The position numbers were made by a program, and so were the translations under genes. The notes beneath the pieces were generated by a model, which made no database searches, was not told the origin of the DNA, and saw nothing but the letters and a program-made list of their open reading frames with translations. From Peredibacter starrii (GTDB lineage Bacteria; Bdellovibrionota; Bacteriovoracia; Bacteriovoracales; Bacteriovoracaceae), in NCBI RefSeq assembly GCF_034259205.1, contig NZ_CP139487.1, positions 3,472,001 to 3,536,000 of the forward strand: 64,000 nt of DNA, read 5' to 3'. Of the stretch, positions 51,611-64,000 are shown piece by piece (position 1 is the first letter of the stretch; each line of letters starts with the position of its first letter).

Positions 51611-51614
<4 letters not shown>

Positions 51615-53308
51615 GGATTAAAGGGAATGATTTCGATGGCACCAGTTGGACAGGCCTCAACACAGGCCATATCCAAGGTACATTTATGAACGTTTAAACC
51701 GTTAATTCGAGTCTCGTGATGTTCTTCAATAGACGCAGTCCAGATTTCAAATGGACATACGTTGATACACGCCTGGCATGAAGCGCAGATCGATGTATCA
51801 AGTAAGAGCTTTCCCTGGTCAAAAGACACCTCCTGGATTGAATCCTGGTCAGTGTTTTTGAGAGCACGAGGGACATCTTTAATTGTCTCTACGCGAACTG
51901 AGTTTGTAGTTCCCTGACGGAAGAACTTACCATCACCCACTGTTACAACGACCTTATCGCCTATTTGAAGAAGATTTTCTTTCTTCAACTTGTCGATCAT
52001 AAGCTCTTCAAGCTTCGTGAGATCGCTGTTCTCATGAATATTAAAGTAGTACGGAGAAATACCCCAATACAGGCTCATCTTGCGAATTACGTGAAGTGAG
52101 TTCGTTACACCTAGAACATGAGTTTTAGGACGGAAACGAGTCATCTTCAAACAAGAATTACCACCCTCAGTGATCGAGATGATCCAACGAGCGTGAAGTT
52201 TTTCAGCTGCAATTGATGCTGAAACCTGAACCGTCGCTGTCACACTTGTAATATTCATATTACGAAGAAGCGGACGCTCAGTTGGTTTCTTCTCTGCTTC
52301 CTCAATGATTTGACCCATGATTTGGATCGCCTCAATTGGATATTTACCAGAAGCAGTTTCACCTGAAAGCATTACCACATCTGTACCGTCCCAAATGGCG
52401 TTGGCCACATCTGAGGCCTCAGCACGAGTTGGACGAGAGTTTGTGATCATACTCTCAAGCATCTGAGTTGCTGTAATGATCGGCTTCCCAAGTTCATTAC
52501 AAATTTTGATCATGCGTTTTTGAATCGCAGGCACCAGATGGTTCCCTACTTCAACACCCATGTCACCACGGGCGATCATGATCATATCTGAAACCTGAAC
52601 AATACTTTCCATATTGTCGAGGGCCTCGGGCTTTTCAATTTTAGAAACGATTGGAATTTGCACCTTCATTGAATGAAGAAGTGCTTTAACTTCGAGAATG
52701 TCTTCTGCGGTACGAACAAAGCTCAGAGCAACGTAGTCCACACCCTGCTTCAGTCCGAACATAAGATCTTCTCTGTCCTTCTCAGTAAAACTCGGAGCAG
52801 AAACCTTTACGTATGGAAGGTTAATCCCTTTGTTAGACTTGAGAATTCCTCCCACTTTAACTTTGATCTTTAGAACTTCACGATCTTTTTCAATCGCTTC
52901 GGCCTCCAAAAGACCATCATCAAAAAGGATACGGGCGCCCACATGAGCGTCCTTCACCAGGTTTTTATAGATGGTAGGGATGAAGTTTTTTGAATACTCC
53001 GGATACTGATCCTTAACGTGAGAAGGGCCAATGACCCAAACTTCATCGTCTTTCAGTTCCAGAGGCTCCGGGAGTTTATCCACACGAATCTTTGGACCTT
53101 GAAGATCCAGGAGAATCGCTACTTCCTTTCCAACATTTCTTGAGGCCTCTCGAATGTTCTTAATGGATTGTTCATGGGCCTCATAGGTACCATGGGACAT
53201 GTTGACTCGGGCGGCATTCATACCGGCCTTGATCATTTTTTCTAGCATCGGGATTGTGTTCGAGCTAGGTCCGATGGTCGCAATGATCTTCGCGCGACGA
53301 ATAGACAT
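51611..53308 (-). CDS. pyk: Pyruvate kinase fused to a C-terminal ferredoxin-like domain
   Basis: 565 residues. Residues 1-475 are a complete pyruvate kinase: RAKIIATIGPSS, NMSHG, LLDLQGPKIR, VSKIEKPEAL (catalytic Lys223), MIARGDMGVEV, ITATQMLESM and the C-terminal allosteric-type domain. Residues about 503-565 are a ferredoxin: C508-x2-C511-x2-C514-x3-C518-P is a normal [4Fe-4S] site. The second, C543-x2-D546-x2-C549-x3-C553-P, has Asp for the second Cys, as in Pyrococcus furiosus ferredoxin. The reading frame is continuous and the stop is shared with queG. Normal Pyk lacks such a tail. Function of the clusters (redox control, stability or electron transfer) is unknown. Confidence 0.95.
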
Positions 53309-59940: not shown

Positions 59941-60017
59941 GCGCCCGTAGCTCAGTTGGTTAGAGTATTACCTTGACATGGTAGGGGTCACAAGTTCGAA
60001 TCTTGTCGGGCGCACCA
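59941..60017 (+). tRNA. tRNA-Val (anticodon GAC), CCA encoded; probable integration site
   Basis: Acceptor GCGCCCG/CGGGCGC, D-arm GCTCAGTTGGTTAGAG, anticodon loop TTGACAT (GAC), T-arm with TTCGAAT and terminal ACCA are complete. The mature body is 59941-60014, CCA 60015-60017. The 3' half is overlapped by the end of the recombinase gene on the other strand. Confidence 0.97.
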
Positions 60018-61633
60018 TTAGTCAAGCTGGTCGAACATTCGGCTTCAAAATAATTAAGGGAGCTGGCATAAACCAGCTCCCTTTTTATTTTAGATCGTCC
60101 CAATCCATAGTGAATCTCAAGCCTGTCAGGAAAAATCTCAATCCGCTCCACTAGACTCGTAATAATCCTCTGTTTCTTCGCCGTGGTTAATCCACTCTCC
60201 TTCAAGTTCCTGAACACATCCAAAAGTTTTTCATAAGTCATCCCATCGGTCGGAAGTTCTCTGTCTAACTCTTCATCCCTTAATTTCAAAATCTGAAGCT
60301 CTAGAAGTTTTTTATCTCCCTCTAGCTTTTCCATTTGCTTATAGATCGGTGCCGCCGACACTTCACGAGGCAACTCGGCAAGCCTAAGCGTAAGGGATTC
60401 AACTTGAGCGTTGATTGAATAGATTTTGTTCTTCAATCGTTCTATTTCAAAAGAGTGATGCTTTTTCTCACTGACCTTAATGACACTTGAAAGGAGAGCT
60501 GTTGCCAATTTTCCAGTGAGAAGTTCCTCAATATCCTTCCAGACTAATTCCTCTGCGATCTGTGCTGGAATCCGATGTGGATCGCAGTTGTAGATTTTCT
60601 CTTTGTACCCCATTTGAATCGTCGTTCGTCTTGCATGCTCATAGTAGGGATGTTTCTTGGTTTTATTATGGGCCGATCTACCACATAATTTTTCTCCGCA
60701 TACGCCACAAGAAATGACTTCCGTCAGGATAAAGGGATAGCGATTCGGGCTTTCAGGCTTCTTCCTCTTATGGTTCTTGGTAAGTTTTTCTTGCACACGA
60801 TTGAAGGTCCCTTCATCAATGATTCCATCCCACGTTGCCTTAGTTTCTTTTACCCCTCCCTTGGTCTTAAAAACTTTTACGCCAATGTAGGATTTGTTGA
60901 TAAGCATCCTATACAGAGTGTCCACCTTGAAATGTCCGGCCCGCATCCATCCACTTCCTTCCCTCTGCTTTCGTAGAGAATAACCGTGGTCATTTAACCA
61001 TCTGCAGGCTGACGACAAAGTGCCTTGATCGAGGAAGGCCTTATAGGCCATCTTCACCACTTTAGATTCATCAGGGTCAGCGTCTAGCTTTCCTTTTGTG
61101 GTTGAGAGTTTGTAACCAAATGCCACTGCACCTCCATTAAACAATCCACGCTCGGCCCTCACCTTAAAACTTGCAGAAATCCTTTCTGCAGTTTGTTTCC
61201 TTTCAAATTCGGCCCAGTTCGCAAAGGATTTAAGCATGAGTTCACCGGTCGCGGTGGTAGTATCGAAATTTTCCCGAAGGGAGTAAAACTCACAGCCAAC
61301 ACTCTTAAAGAACTCCCACATGTTCTCAAAGTCTTTTGTGCTTCGGGATAGACGGGATAATTCCGTCACCATGACAAGGTTCACATCACCTTCTTCAACC
61401 GCTTTTAAAAGCTTCTTCAATGCCGGACGATTCATGTCCTTGGCCGATAGACCTGGGTCTGAAAAGACTCCTACGATGTCGCAGGACTTCCCCATATCCT
61501 TTTGATAGCGGACAGTTTGACGTAAGCGCTCTTCTTGGTTCTTGATCGAACCTTCGGGATTTTCTGCTTGTTCCTCAGTGGAAACTCGGACGTAGAGTGC
61601 AATCTTGAAGTGTTTTGAATCGGACGCATTCAT
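59960..61633 (-). CDS. Large serine recombinase (site-specific integrase), C-terminus reads into tRNA-Val
   Basis: 557 residues. Resolvase catalytic domain 10-160: nucleophile Ser18 in LYVRVSTEEQ, ELSRLSRSTKDFENMW, AEFERKQTAERI. Then a recombinase domain (KAFLDQGTLSSACRWLNDHGY), a zinc ribbon (ISCGVCGEKLCG...NCDPHRIP) and a coiled-coil arm of about 100 residues, the full large-serine-integrase layout. The last 17 or so residues (APDKIRTCDPYHVKV) are merely the antisense of the tRNA 3' half. Integration near the tRNA created this tail. A small ORF lies 2 nt upstream. Confidence 0.93.
   Translation of the reverse strand: MNASDSKHFKIALYVRVSTEEQAENPEGSIKNQEERLRQTVRYQKDMGKSCDIVGVFSDPGLSAKDMNRPALKKLLKAVEEGDVNLVMVTELSRLSRSTKDFENMWEFFKSVGCEFYSLRENFDTTTATGELMLKSFANWAEFERKQTAERISASFKVRAERGLFNGGAVAFGYKLSTTKGKLDADPDESKVVKMAYKAFLDQGTLSSACRWLNDHGYSLRKQREGSGWMRAGHFKVDTLYRMLINKSYIGVKVFKTKGGVKETKATWDGIIDEGTFNRVQEKLTKNHKRKKPESPNRYPFILTEVISCGVCGEKLCGRSAHNKTKKHPYYEHARRTTIQMGYKEKIYNCDPHRIPAQIAEELVWKDIEELLTGKLATALLSSVIKVSEKKHHSFEIERLKNKIYSINAQVESLTLRLAELPREVSAAPIYKQMEKLEGDKKLLELQILKLRDEELDRELPTDGMTYEKLLDVFRNLKESGLTTAKKQRIITSLVERIEIFPDRLEIHYGLGRSKIKRELVYASSLNYFEAECSTSLTNGAPDKIRTCDPYHVKVIL
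60056..60090 (+). terminator. Rho-independent terminator of tRNA-Val
   Basis: AAGGGAGCTGG (60056-60066), 6-nt loop, CCAGCTCCCTT (60073-60083), then TTTATTTT. A perfect 11-bp stem, but it lies within the 3' end of the recombinase open frame. Confidence 0.85.
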
Positions 61634-61635
61634 GC

Positions 61636-61827
61636 CTAACCTACCTTTTCTAATTCCTGTTCATCACAAGAAGTTTTAAGTTTAGGTTCAACAGAACGGT
61701 TTTTATGAAGCTCGCAAAAAGCATCATAAAAAAGTTCTCCCAATTCATCAAGCCGCCTTTCAAACAGTTCTTCATCCACCTCTACGATCTTTCTTCCAAT
61801 AAATTCTGGATTCCATTTCTTCTTCAT
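61636..61827 (-). CDS. Small ORF upstream of the recombinase
   Basis: 63 residues, charged and mainly helical, with GAAGGGAATCAG before the ATG. It ends 2 nt before the recombinase ATG, with GGTAGG in its last codons serving as the recombinase ribosome site. No family recognised. A recombination directionality factor or accessory protein would be usual here, but is not shown. Confidence 0.55.
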   Translation of the reverse strand: MKKKWNPEFIGRKIVEVDEELFERRLDELGELFYDAFCELHKNRSVEPKLKTSCDEQELEKVG

Positions 61828-61943
61828 CTGATTCCCTTCTTCTCATTCGGGACTCATTTGTTTTGCTCATAAGTGTCTTCATAGTTATTTTCCCTTTGTT
61901 GTTAATCATCCAAAGCCGCCGCCTACACATGCCAGACTCTACA

Positions 61944-61990
61944 TTTTTGACCACTATCGCCCAATATCGTTGGGGGGGAGTGGTCAAAAA
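61944..61990. repeat. 47-nt nested inverted repeat with a G7 run
   Basis: Outer arms TTTTTGACCACT (61944-61955) and AGTGGTCAAAAA (61979-61990) pair perfectly over 12 bp; inside, CCCAA (61960-61964) and TTGGG (61970-61974) pair around TATCG. A G7 run (61972-61978) overlaps the inner and outer right parts. Possible att, cruciform or operator site. Confidence 0.7.
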
Positions 61991-62080
61991 TAATCAGGAC
62001 GAGTCGGCATGAAAAAATGCGGCGGCAACTCATTAAAATCAAAAACAAAAATTCAGTTTTAGCTGCTCAATTTGAAAATC

Positions 62081-62121
62081 GAGAAGTGTACACTTGGGAG
62101 CTGCATTAAAGTACACTTCTC
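62081..62121. repeat. 11-bp inverted repeat, spacer 19 nt
   Basis: GAGAAGTGTAC (62081-62091) and GTACACTTCTC (62111-62121) are perfect reverse complements. The left arm also starts the 12-bp palindrome AAGTGTACACTT (62084-62095). Looks like an operator pair. Confidence 0.7.
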
Positions 62122-62260
62122 CCGCGTCATTTTACTCACTTCAATCACCTCCTTTTAGCGTGAGACACTTTTGTGTTTTTCACTCACTACATGCAAGAGC
62201 GTGCCAAAGTAATTGGCGAAGCTAGTCAGAAACAAGTTTTTGTTTTGATTCATTTTTGGA

Positions 62261-62350
62261 GTGAGACAAGTGTTTCACGGTTTTGAGACTGAGACAGTTG
62301 TTTCACGAAATTGTGTCGGGCAGTTGTCTCAAACCCGAGACAGTTGTCTC
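62261..62350. repeat. Four tandem copies of a palindromic element, core GAGACA-NN-TGTCTC
   Basis: Copies: GTGAGACAAGTGTTTCAC (62261-62278), TGAGACAGTTGTTTCA (62290-62305), GGGCAGTTGTCTCA (62318-62331, left arm degraded) and GAGACAGTTGTCTC (62337-62350). Centres are spaced 28, 26 and 20 nt. A further half copy GTGAGACA lies at 62160-62167. Consensus is roughly GTGAGACA-RK-TGTYTCAC. They precede the histidine kinase start by about 150 nt. Confidence 0.75.
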
Positions 62351-62498
62351 ATTCAGAATATGTTATGTAATTTGTTGCAAGTGATTCGCTGCAAGACTAC
62401 CACTACTCGCCATAGTAACAGGCCATCGATCTAGTGCAAAAGTACGTTGCCCCTTGAACAGTTTGATCTACTATGAAAGTATCCATACGAGGAATAAC

Positions 62499-63623
62499 AT
62501 GAGCAAGATAACATCAGAAATGCTTCGAAATAAAATTAGTGAAATCATCTATGCATGGGAGGAAAGAGTTCTTCAAGAAGTGCATGCGGCAAAACTGCAA
62601 AAAGGTCTTGCGCTCCGTAATTCTCTAAGAGAATTTATTAATCAGTTAGCAGAAGAACTTTCTGATTCAAAAACTCGTTCAAGTAAAGAGGTGGAGGAAG
62701 GGAAGCAACTTAGAACTCGTATCGGAAAGCAGCATGGACAAGCAAGGGCAAACAGTATCCTATACACCTTAGACCAACTCATTTATGAATATCATGTTTT
62801 GAGACAGGTCATTTTTAAAGTTCTAGAACGAGACCAACCCATTGAGCTTAATGACCGGGAAATTATAACTGAATACATAGAACAGGCAGTAAACGACGCC
62901 GCCACGGAGTTTAGCTACACATTAAAGGCTGTTCAAGATCAGCTGTCACGCACACTGGCCCATGATTTAAGAAATCCAATTTCCATTGCCAAAGCAAGTG
63001 CAGAATTAATATTACGTAGACCCGATGACGAAAATAGTTGCATCGACAAAGCAACACGTATCGTATCGAGCATGAGTCGAATTGATAAAATGATACGAGA
63101 CTTATTGGATGCTACCAAAATCAAAGCTGGCGAGCTGCCTAGCATGGATCTTAAAATTTGTGATGTCGATTGGATTTTGAGAGAGGTTGTTCTTGAACTA
63201 AATCTTGCAGAGGCCGAAAAAGTCATCTTGAAATCAAAGGCGCCAATCAACGGTTATTGGAATGAAGATGCTCTTCGAAGGATCACAGAAAACCTCATCA
63301 CTAACGCCATAAAATATGGAAAGACCAAAACTCCAGTTATCGTTTCAGTTCAAGAAAAAGACCACTTTGTATCCATAAATGTCCACAACGATGGTCCTCC
63401 GATTTCAGAACAAGATATGAAAAAACTATTTCAACCTTTCGAGAGAGCGAAATCATCAGAAGGAAAAACTGGCTGGGGCATAGGCCTGACTGTTGTAAAG
63501 ACTTTGGTGGACGCTCTTCATGGAGAAATCACAGTGACAAGTGTCGAAGATGAAGGAACGACATTTTCCATCACACTTCCGATAGATTTTCGAAATGAAA
63601 GGGAAAAGCCAATTTTTCAATAA
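62499..63623 (+). CDS. Orphan sensor histidine kinase with RsbRD-like N-terminal domain
   Basis: 374 residues from the ATG at 62499 (GAGG 6 nt upstream; the frame extends to 62454). Residues 1-140 are an all-helical, non-membrane sensor domain resembling RsbRD_N. HisKA box LAHDLRNP with His155; HATPase with NLITNAIKYG (N box) and GWGIGLTVVKTL (G box). So a cytosolic autokinase. No response regulator follows it in the window; the HTH gene at the right edge might be part of one. It sits in the integrated element. Confidence 0.9.
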   Translation: MSKITSEMLRNKISEIIYAWEERVLQEVHAAKLQKGLALRNSLREFINQLAEELSDSKTRSSKEVEEGKQLRTRIGKQHGQARANSILYTLDQLIYEYHVLRQVIFKVLERDQPIELNDREIITEYIEQAVNDAATEFSYTLKAVQDQLSRTLAHDLRNPISIAKASAELILRRPDDENSCIDKATRIVSSMSRIDKMIRDLLDATKIKAGELPSMDLKICDVDWILREVVLELNLAEAEKVILKSKAPINGYWNEDALRRITENLITNAIKYGKTKTPVIVSVQEKDHFVSINVHNDGPPISEQDMKKLFQPFERAKSSEGKTGWGIGLTVVKTLVDALHGEITVTSVEDEGTTFSITLPIDFRNEREKPIFQ

Positions 63624-63796: not shown

Positions 63797-64000
63797 TCAT
63801 GTCTCCCCCTTTTTGTCCTTCACTGAACGATCGATTCCGTACAGATAAACCTTGATTGTACTGAGACTAACCCCACAGTGCTGAGCAAGTTCTTTATTTG
63901 TCCATCCGTGTTGTGCCCGAAGAGTTGCGAGCTTCTTCTGACTGAGGTTGAAAACCTCCCGTTTCCATTGAACCGAGAACACCCTCTTGGCAACAACGGG
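63797..64000 (-). CDS. Helix-turn-helix protein (LuxR/sigma-4-like), partial at the right edge
   Basis: 68 codons are open from the stop at 63797 to base 64000. The first in-frame start is a GTG at 63982, but its nearest AGAGG touches the codon directly, so the true start may lie beyond the window. The HTH is NKELAQHCGVSLSTIKVYL, followed by a short basic-acidic tail ending KDKKGET. Could be the DNA-binding end of a response regulator or a small transcription factor of the element. Convergent with the histidine kinase. Confidence 0.55.
   Translation of the reverse strand, partial: PVVAKRVFSVQWKREVFNLSQKKLATLRAQHGWTNKELAQHCGVSLSTIKVYLYGIDRSVKDKKGET

Follow-up and report, generated by a model that had tools for sequence, protein, structure and literature searches.

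The locus considered here raises the question of what an array of palindromes of the form GAGACA-NN-TGTCTC is for. It lies in the window, by which we mean the whole 64,000-nucleotide stretch of DNA that was analysed (genome positions 3472001-3536000), and the source genome (Peredibacter starrii, G000) is a single contig of 4.15 Mb, 98% complete. A sequence-only reading of the window had described four near-identical palindromes, with an extra half copy, in a non-coding region before a histidine kinase gene, and had proposed operators for a dimeric regulator, possibly encoded in the same integrated element, or iterons of a replication origin. The palindromes are real, the region is non-coding, and the half copy is present (GTGAGACAC at 62160-62168); three palindromes are good copies and the fourth is degenerate, with three mismatches. 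The idea of regulator-binding sites in an integrated element also proved right in kind, while the direction of the target, the source of the binding protein, and the iteron option had to be revised. From the comparisons set out below it seems fairly probable (roughly 0.7) that the array is an enhancer for the NtrC-type sigma54 activator of a helper ICE, which would switch on a mobilizable mini-element.

In the window the dyads take the form TGARACA-NN-TGTYTCA, with 28, 26, and 20 bp from one start to the next (Table 1). The three good dyads are the only matches to GAGACA-NN-TGTCTC with at most one mismatch in the 64 kb; with at most two mismatches there are seven matches against 3.3 expected, a loose count that alone is not significant. 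Dyads of the 7-2-7 form with at most one mismatch are expected 0.23 times per 95 bp, and the array has three, related to each other in sequence. Homology speaks most strongly against chance. In each of the eight type-A loci, those of the window and of seven further genomes, the two dyads nearest the promoter begin at -70/71 and -98/99 relative to TGGCACG; the distal dyads, where present, begin at -125 and -145. A scan of other genomes for the motif, as the sequence-only reading had proposed, gave five exact matches to two half-sites plus the promoter pattern in 84,980 species genomes, all five on contigs that match loci of this phylum bearing the dyad-promoter unit. Single dyad matches elsewhere in the P. 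starrii genome (220102 and 2059719) have no other dyads and no TGGCAC-N-TTGCW site near them, and were taken as chance.

The type-A loci came from a DNA search of 58 relatives with the segment 62060-62510, which led to two other genomes (G015 and G017), from a pattern search with a dyad half and the promoter element in 369 Bdellovibrionota genomes, which added G079, G139, and G313, and from searches with a transfer gene and with the recombinase, which added G316 and G326; loci upstream of the ICE 142-aa gene were scanned for promoters. Comparison of the window with G015 and G017 revealed a conserved minus-strand feature that the sequence-only reading had missed, namely a -24/-12 element (TTGGCACGCTCTTGCA, 62192-62207) followed by a Shine-Dalgarno sequence and directed leftward into a serine recombinase operon. 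Read on the minus strand, the dyads lie 56-145 bp upstream of this element with an IHF-like site in between, a site found at -38/-39 with one or two mismatches in 9 of the 19 tabulated loci. The half copy, too, has a conserved place in the leader, with the variant CTGTCTCAC in G079. Between the window and G139, identity is 56/64 in the dyads and 12/12 in the promoter, against 63/89 at other positions; the distal dyads are absent or changed in some homologs, which counts against the enhancer reading. An assignment of the array to the rightward histidine kinase was rejected because no -24/-12 element lies between the array and 62502. The target of the sites is most likely the leftward recombinase operon, by way of the -24/-12 promoter.

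Table 1. Features of the integrated element and of its regulatory region, in window coordinates.
Feature	Position	Strand	Remarks
tRNA-Val, integration site	59941-60017	+	attL core GCACCA at 60012-60017
Serine recombinase	60018-61633	-	ORF continues into the tRNA
63-aa protein, conserved	61636-61827	-	directly upstream of recombinase; 56% identity in G139; 64-aa proteins like it in four other elements
oriT-like nested inverted repeat, loop CCCCCAACGATATTG	61915-62026	-	DNA fold -38.4 kcal/mol, z -9.6; covariation
Short ORF, 26 aa, GTG start	62059-62139	-	head of recombinase operon; similar stretch in G017
Shine-Dalgarno AAAGGAGGTG	62146-62155	-	same place in ICE operons
Leader half-site GTGTCTCAC	62160-62168	-	conserved between promoter and Shine-Dalgarno in 6/8 type-A loci
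-24/-12 (sigma54-like) promoter element TGGCACG-CTC-TTGCA	62192-62206	-	TGGCAC[GA]-N3-TTGC[AT] at 19 element promoters
IHF-like site AAACAAAAACTTG	62233-62245	-	lies between array and promoter; differs from WATCAANNNNTTR by 1 mismatch
Dyad 1, promoter-proximal, TGAAACACTTGTCTCA (minus-strand reading)	62262-62277	-	0 mismatches; start -71 from TGGCACG; candidate upstream activating site
Dyad 2, TGAAACAACTGTCTCA	62290-62305	-	0 mismatches; start -99 from TGGCACG
Dyad 3, degenerate, TCGGGCAGTTGTCTCA (TGAGACAACTGCCCGA on minus strand)	62316-62331	-	3 mismatches; counterpart in same place in G015
Dyad 4, distal, TGAGACAACTGTCTCG	62336-62351	-	1 mismatch; start -145; counterparts in G015 and G139
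Histidine kinase with RsbRD_N domain	62502-63623	+	domain match
Small HTH protein	63797-64000 in window, start codon at window-frame 64012	-	start beside attR; weak repressor-family matches

The same order and spacing of dyads, IHF-like site, TGGCACG-N3-TTGC, and Shine-Dalgarno sequence is seen before recombinase operons and before the transfer operons of ICEs. In G015 and G313 the promoter heads a long operon with VirB2 (TrbC/VirB2 pilin), VirB4, VirB9-like (CagX), VirB10-like (TrbI), and other T4SS-like genes, the Pfam assignments having been made on G015, and the operons of G316 and G079 begin in the same way. The G313 operon runs on to a VirD4-like coupling protein (with NCBIfam TraD matches), along with a mobilization-type protein and a serine recombinase. 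Promoter and recombinase are not separated by transfer genes in the window, G139, G017, and G326.

Beside the ICE promoter, genes for a periplasmic binding protein, a histidine kinase, and an NtrC-type activator were found at six loci in five genomes (G313, G316, G153, G212 with two, and G056). The three activators scanned with Pfam consist of Response_reg, Sigma54_activat, and a Fis-type HTH, and the linked activators carry the GAFTGA motif (GAYTGA in G316). At the ICE loci, then, dyads stand before a -24/-12 promoter and are linked to an activator with GAFTGA and a Fis-type HTH, the arrangement that marks upstream activating sites. Activators 67-69% identical to each other (G313, G316, and a partial gene in G015, where a fragment at the contig end is 69% identical) go with TGARACA-NN-TGTYTCA dyads, those 82-83% identical (G153 and the two of G212) go with CTCTCA..TGAGAG dyads (type B), and the G056 activator, 46% identical to the G153/G212 group, goes with ACTGTCAT repeats. 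The recognition helices of the activator groups differ in step with the dyad type. The palindromes thus vary in sequence from one activator subfamily to another, within a constant architecture. Since site and activator subfamily change together, these loci offer a natural test of co-evolving specificity.

The binding proteins differ as well: type A (G313) has Peripla_BP_6, and types B and C have the oligopeptide-type family SBP_bac_5, a difference that hints at an extracellular ligand. In the type-B and type-C ICEs the SBP_bac_5 gene stands beside the kinase and activator genes (L075 15790-17280, L078 8280-9755), which suggests peptide sensing as a transfer signal.

The element that carries the array in the window is 4,014 bp long (60018-64031) and is integrated in tRNA-Val. 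Its right end was given only by comparison with an empty site, as a direct search for tRNA repeats did not find it: in G010 the tRNA-Val end GCACCA is followed by the sequence found to the right of the second GCACCA in the P. starrii genome. The attR core is thereby placed at 64026-64031 in the frame of the window, 31 bp past the window end. Like helper-dependent islands, the element encodes an integrase of its own, and its ends are defined and lie at an att site. Along the minus strand it has the short ORF, a hairpin, the 63-aa protein, and the recombinase. Since the recombinase ORF (59960-61633) reads through tRNA-Val, the annotated C-terminus of the enzyme depends on the integration site. 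The histidine kinase is probably cargo; no relatives of it were found in a search of genome contigs. The HTH gene also occupies an end of the mini-elements in G139 and G017, which have the HTH-cargo-array-recombinase layout of the window with different cargo; the G017 recombinase is truncated. No mating-pair genes and no Rep gene were found among the ORFs of the element, and the plasmid collection gave no DNA match to it, with activator relatives there reaching at most 36% identity among the matches listed. Elsewhere in the window, 51611-53308 encodes a pyruvate kinase-like protein with two ferredoxin-type cysteine motifs (SICASCQACINVCPF and CTLDMACVEACP) at its C-terminus, an unusual fusion.

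The interval that separates the promoter from the 63-aa gene contains a nested inverted repeat whose loop is invariant (CCCCCAACGATRTTG, with CCCCCAACGAGTTG or CCCCCAACGAAGTTG in some ICEs). In the ICEs of G015, G056, G313, G153, G212, and G316, an equivalent hairpin closely follows the mobilization-type gene, and other mini-elements have it too. In an alignment of ten sequences, 96.6% of the cells are paired and ten pairs show two-sided changes; the covariation score is 0.338 versus 0.146 in shuffles, and none of 500 shuffles reaches it. The hairpin core occurs in 32 of the 369 genomes, including those of four type-B mini-elements, with no hits for a reversed control pattern. Its place and its sharing with ICEs suggest that the hairpin may be an origin of transfer. 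The ICE mobilization-type protein encoded beside it has a weak NCBIfam MobC match below the cut-off and a PD..ExEK pattern; its structural model, a confident one (pLDDT 89), has no significant PDB match and shows only weak likeness to winged-helix and restriction-enzyme folds. Within the short leader ORF there is another inverted repeat (GAGAAGTGTAC..GTACACTTCTC, 62070-62125), common to G017 only. Its fold is only marginally more stable than that of shuffles (z -1.6).

The enhancer reading can be put as follows. Active activator hexamers would bind the dyads, and the bound activator would loop over the IHF-like bend and open the -24/-12 promoter at 62192-62206, giving leftward transcription through the short ORF, the oriT-like region, the 63-aa protein, and the serine recombinase. 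The activator would be supplied by related ICEs with a histidine kinase and a periplasmic binding protein, which appear to use the same kind of site for their own VirB-type transfer operon. If such a helper ICE became active in the same cell, the element's recombinase would be induced, the element would excise, and the helper machinery may then process the shared oriT-like hairpin and transfer the element. Several points count against this reading: induction of a serine integrase alone need not bring excision, the 63-aa protein is not a recognized excision factor, and the window's element lacks the ICE mobilization gene. Furthermore, no type-A activator was found in the element or anywhere else in the 98%-complete genome, so the interaction cannot be seen in one cell, and among the genomes examined none was found in which a type-A ICE occurs together with a type-A mini-element.

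It is possible that the element is instead a relic, an ICE deletion derivative from which the transfer operon is gone and in which the promoter is simply inherited, with an array that no longer functions. In the P. starrii genome neither the transfer genes or transfer operon of this ICE family nor the type-A activator was found, and the truncated G017 recombinase points in the same direction. We regard this explanation as unlikely. In the window the recombinase, the 63-aa gene, the HTH gene, both ends, the oriT-like hairpin, and the promoter are all intact, the layout shared with G139 and G017 is kept around different cargo, and conservation is higher in the dyads and promoter than at the surrounding positions. 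An equivalent recombinase-operon layout is also seen in four type-B mini-elements (G184, G209, G210, and G211), which have the CTCTCA-type dyads of the type-B ICEs and a 9-bp-spaced promoter; in the three with ORFs listed, a 64-aa protein like the 63-aa protein of the window is followed by a serine recombinase. Three of these four belong to the genus of G212, the carrier of two type-B ICEs. Because mini-elements with a different dyad type show the pattern again, the sites appear to matter in mini-elements and not to be mere leftovers.

In another reading the promoter does depend on an activator, but the dyad-binding protein works with a sigma factor other than sigma54, and TGGCACG-N3-TTGC is a different element. 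Canonical sigma54 promoters have a GG-GC spacing of 10 bp. The sigma54 hallmarks TGGCAC(G) and TTGC(A/T) are both present at the 19 tabulated loci, and the spacing is 9 bp (TGGCAC[GA]-N3-TTGC[AT]) in 19 of 19, in a table that was built with the N3 pattern from loci found by scans that permitted other spacings, the promoter regexes presupposing TGG and TTGC elements. The defining 10-bp spacing (TGGCACG-N4-TTGC) occurs at 0 of the 19, and two candidate sites before ICE operons have 8 bp (TGGCATCCCTTGCT, at the expected promoter place in G209, L052 1000, and G185, L054 1009). Counting further against sigma54, canonical spacing is the enriched class in the P. starrii genome (15 of 29 TGGCAC-N-TTGCW sites), and Myxococcus promoters are lowered by a 1-bp spacer deletion (PMC7910581). 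Nevertheless, a different sigma factor seems quite improbable, as the linked activators combine GAFTGA, or GAYTGA in G316, with the Pfam sigma54-interaction domain, both hallmarks are kept, and rpoN is present as one copy in each of ten genomes checked. With linked activators of the sigma54 type, it is most economical to regard the element promoter as a spacing variant that probably works like a sigma54 promoter, a claim that stops short of canonical membership. Pattern matches in G192, G310, G311, and G365 have the canonical N4 spacing and no dyads, and were set aside as ordinary sigma54 promoters unrelated to the array. A second 9-bp-spaced site in the P. starrii genome (TGGCACGCTCTTGCA, 1501628; L128 1628) has no dyads, lies just upstream of a gene with a signal-peptide-like start, and could be a host promoter that shares this spacing.

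The array could also be an operator for a regulator of the element itself, for instance a recombinase repressor, with the HTH protein (63797-64012) or the 63-aa protein as the binder, much as the sequence-only reading had suggested when it named the ORF at 61636 or the HTH gene. Three type-A mini-elements have this conserved HTH protein at their end, and its weak family matches are to repressors. We consider this very improbable, since no HTH homolog was found in the examined type-A ICE loci that carry the same dyads, the dyads lie 56-145 bp upstream of the promoter element and do not overlap it, and the dyad sequence follows the ICE-borne NtrC-type activator. An enhancer-promoter fits the finding better than a simple operator array does. 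Replication-origin iterons or recombinase accessory sites, as tandem dyads in a mobile element might be, can hardly be what these are, given that the element has no Rep gene, the dyads lie about 1.7-2.3 kb from its ends and elsewhere precede conjugation operons, and the ends bear other inverted motifs (GGTCGAAYA).

Beyond the single locus, the enhancer reading leads to a tentative proposal, to which we give slightly less than even odds: that Bdellovibrionota harbour an ICE family run by sensor-fed NtrC-type enhancers with an undescribed 9-bp-spaced class of sigma54 promoter, and that elements of about 4-5 kb without an activator eavesdrop on it, each bearing the helper's enhancer-promoter and an oriT mimic and awaiting the helper. 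Islands that read a helper's activator are already established in gammaproteobacteria (SGI1 and the SetCD-driven islands) and Bacteroides; if true, the present case would be an independent one in a phylum of predators whose gene transfer is little understood. The uniform 9-bp spacing would challenge the usual strict spacing rule for sigma54, and the oriT-like motif and the dyad-promoter pattern provide practical probes for such elements. No ICE-satellite pair controlled through a sigma54 enhancer was found in the literature searched.

As at canonical sigma54 promoters with NtrC-family enhancers and IHF, the element has distal dyads, an IHF-like site, TGGCACG, and TTGC(A/T), and differs from them in its 9-bp GG-GC spacing. 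Among the known regulators of mobile elements, SetCD is FlhCD-like and RteB is NtrC-like. In Bacteroides, the ICE-borne two-component system RteA/RteB of CTnDOT controls excision and transfer and activates CTn4-bt in trans (PMC1976400). It acts through rteC and responds to tetracycline, whereas the ICEs described here add a periplasmic binding protein and appear to place the enhancer-promoter directly at the transfer operon; the likeness is one of logic. SGI1, like some other islands, has promoters with sites for AcaCD, the activator of its helper IncC plasmids (PMC4207636), a regulator of an unrelated type, and the integrase, host group, and size also differ from those of the window's element. 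The islands driven by SXT/R391 ICEs through SetCD (MGIVflInd1 type) have their own integrase, a site for the helper's master activator, a helper-like oriT, and no transfer genes (PMC5397120). The element of the window is like them in being integrated, with its own integrase, a candidate helper-activator site, a hairpin that may be a helper-like oriT, and no transfer genes. In the SetCD islands the activator targets the gene for an excision factor and int is constitutive, whereas the candidate target in the window is the recombinase operon; the element differs also in its NtrC-type enhancer-like sites on a -24/-12 promoter, its serine recombinase, and its size of only 4 kb. The present case is best read, by analogy, as the logic of the AcaCD and SetCD islands carried out with different parts, probably through a sigma54 enhancer.
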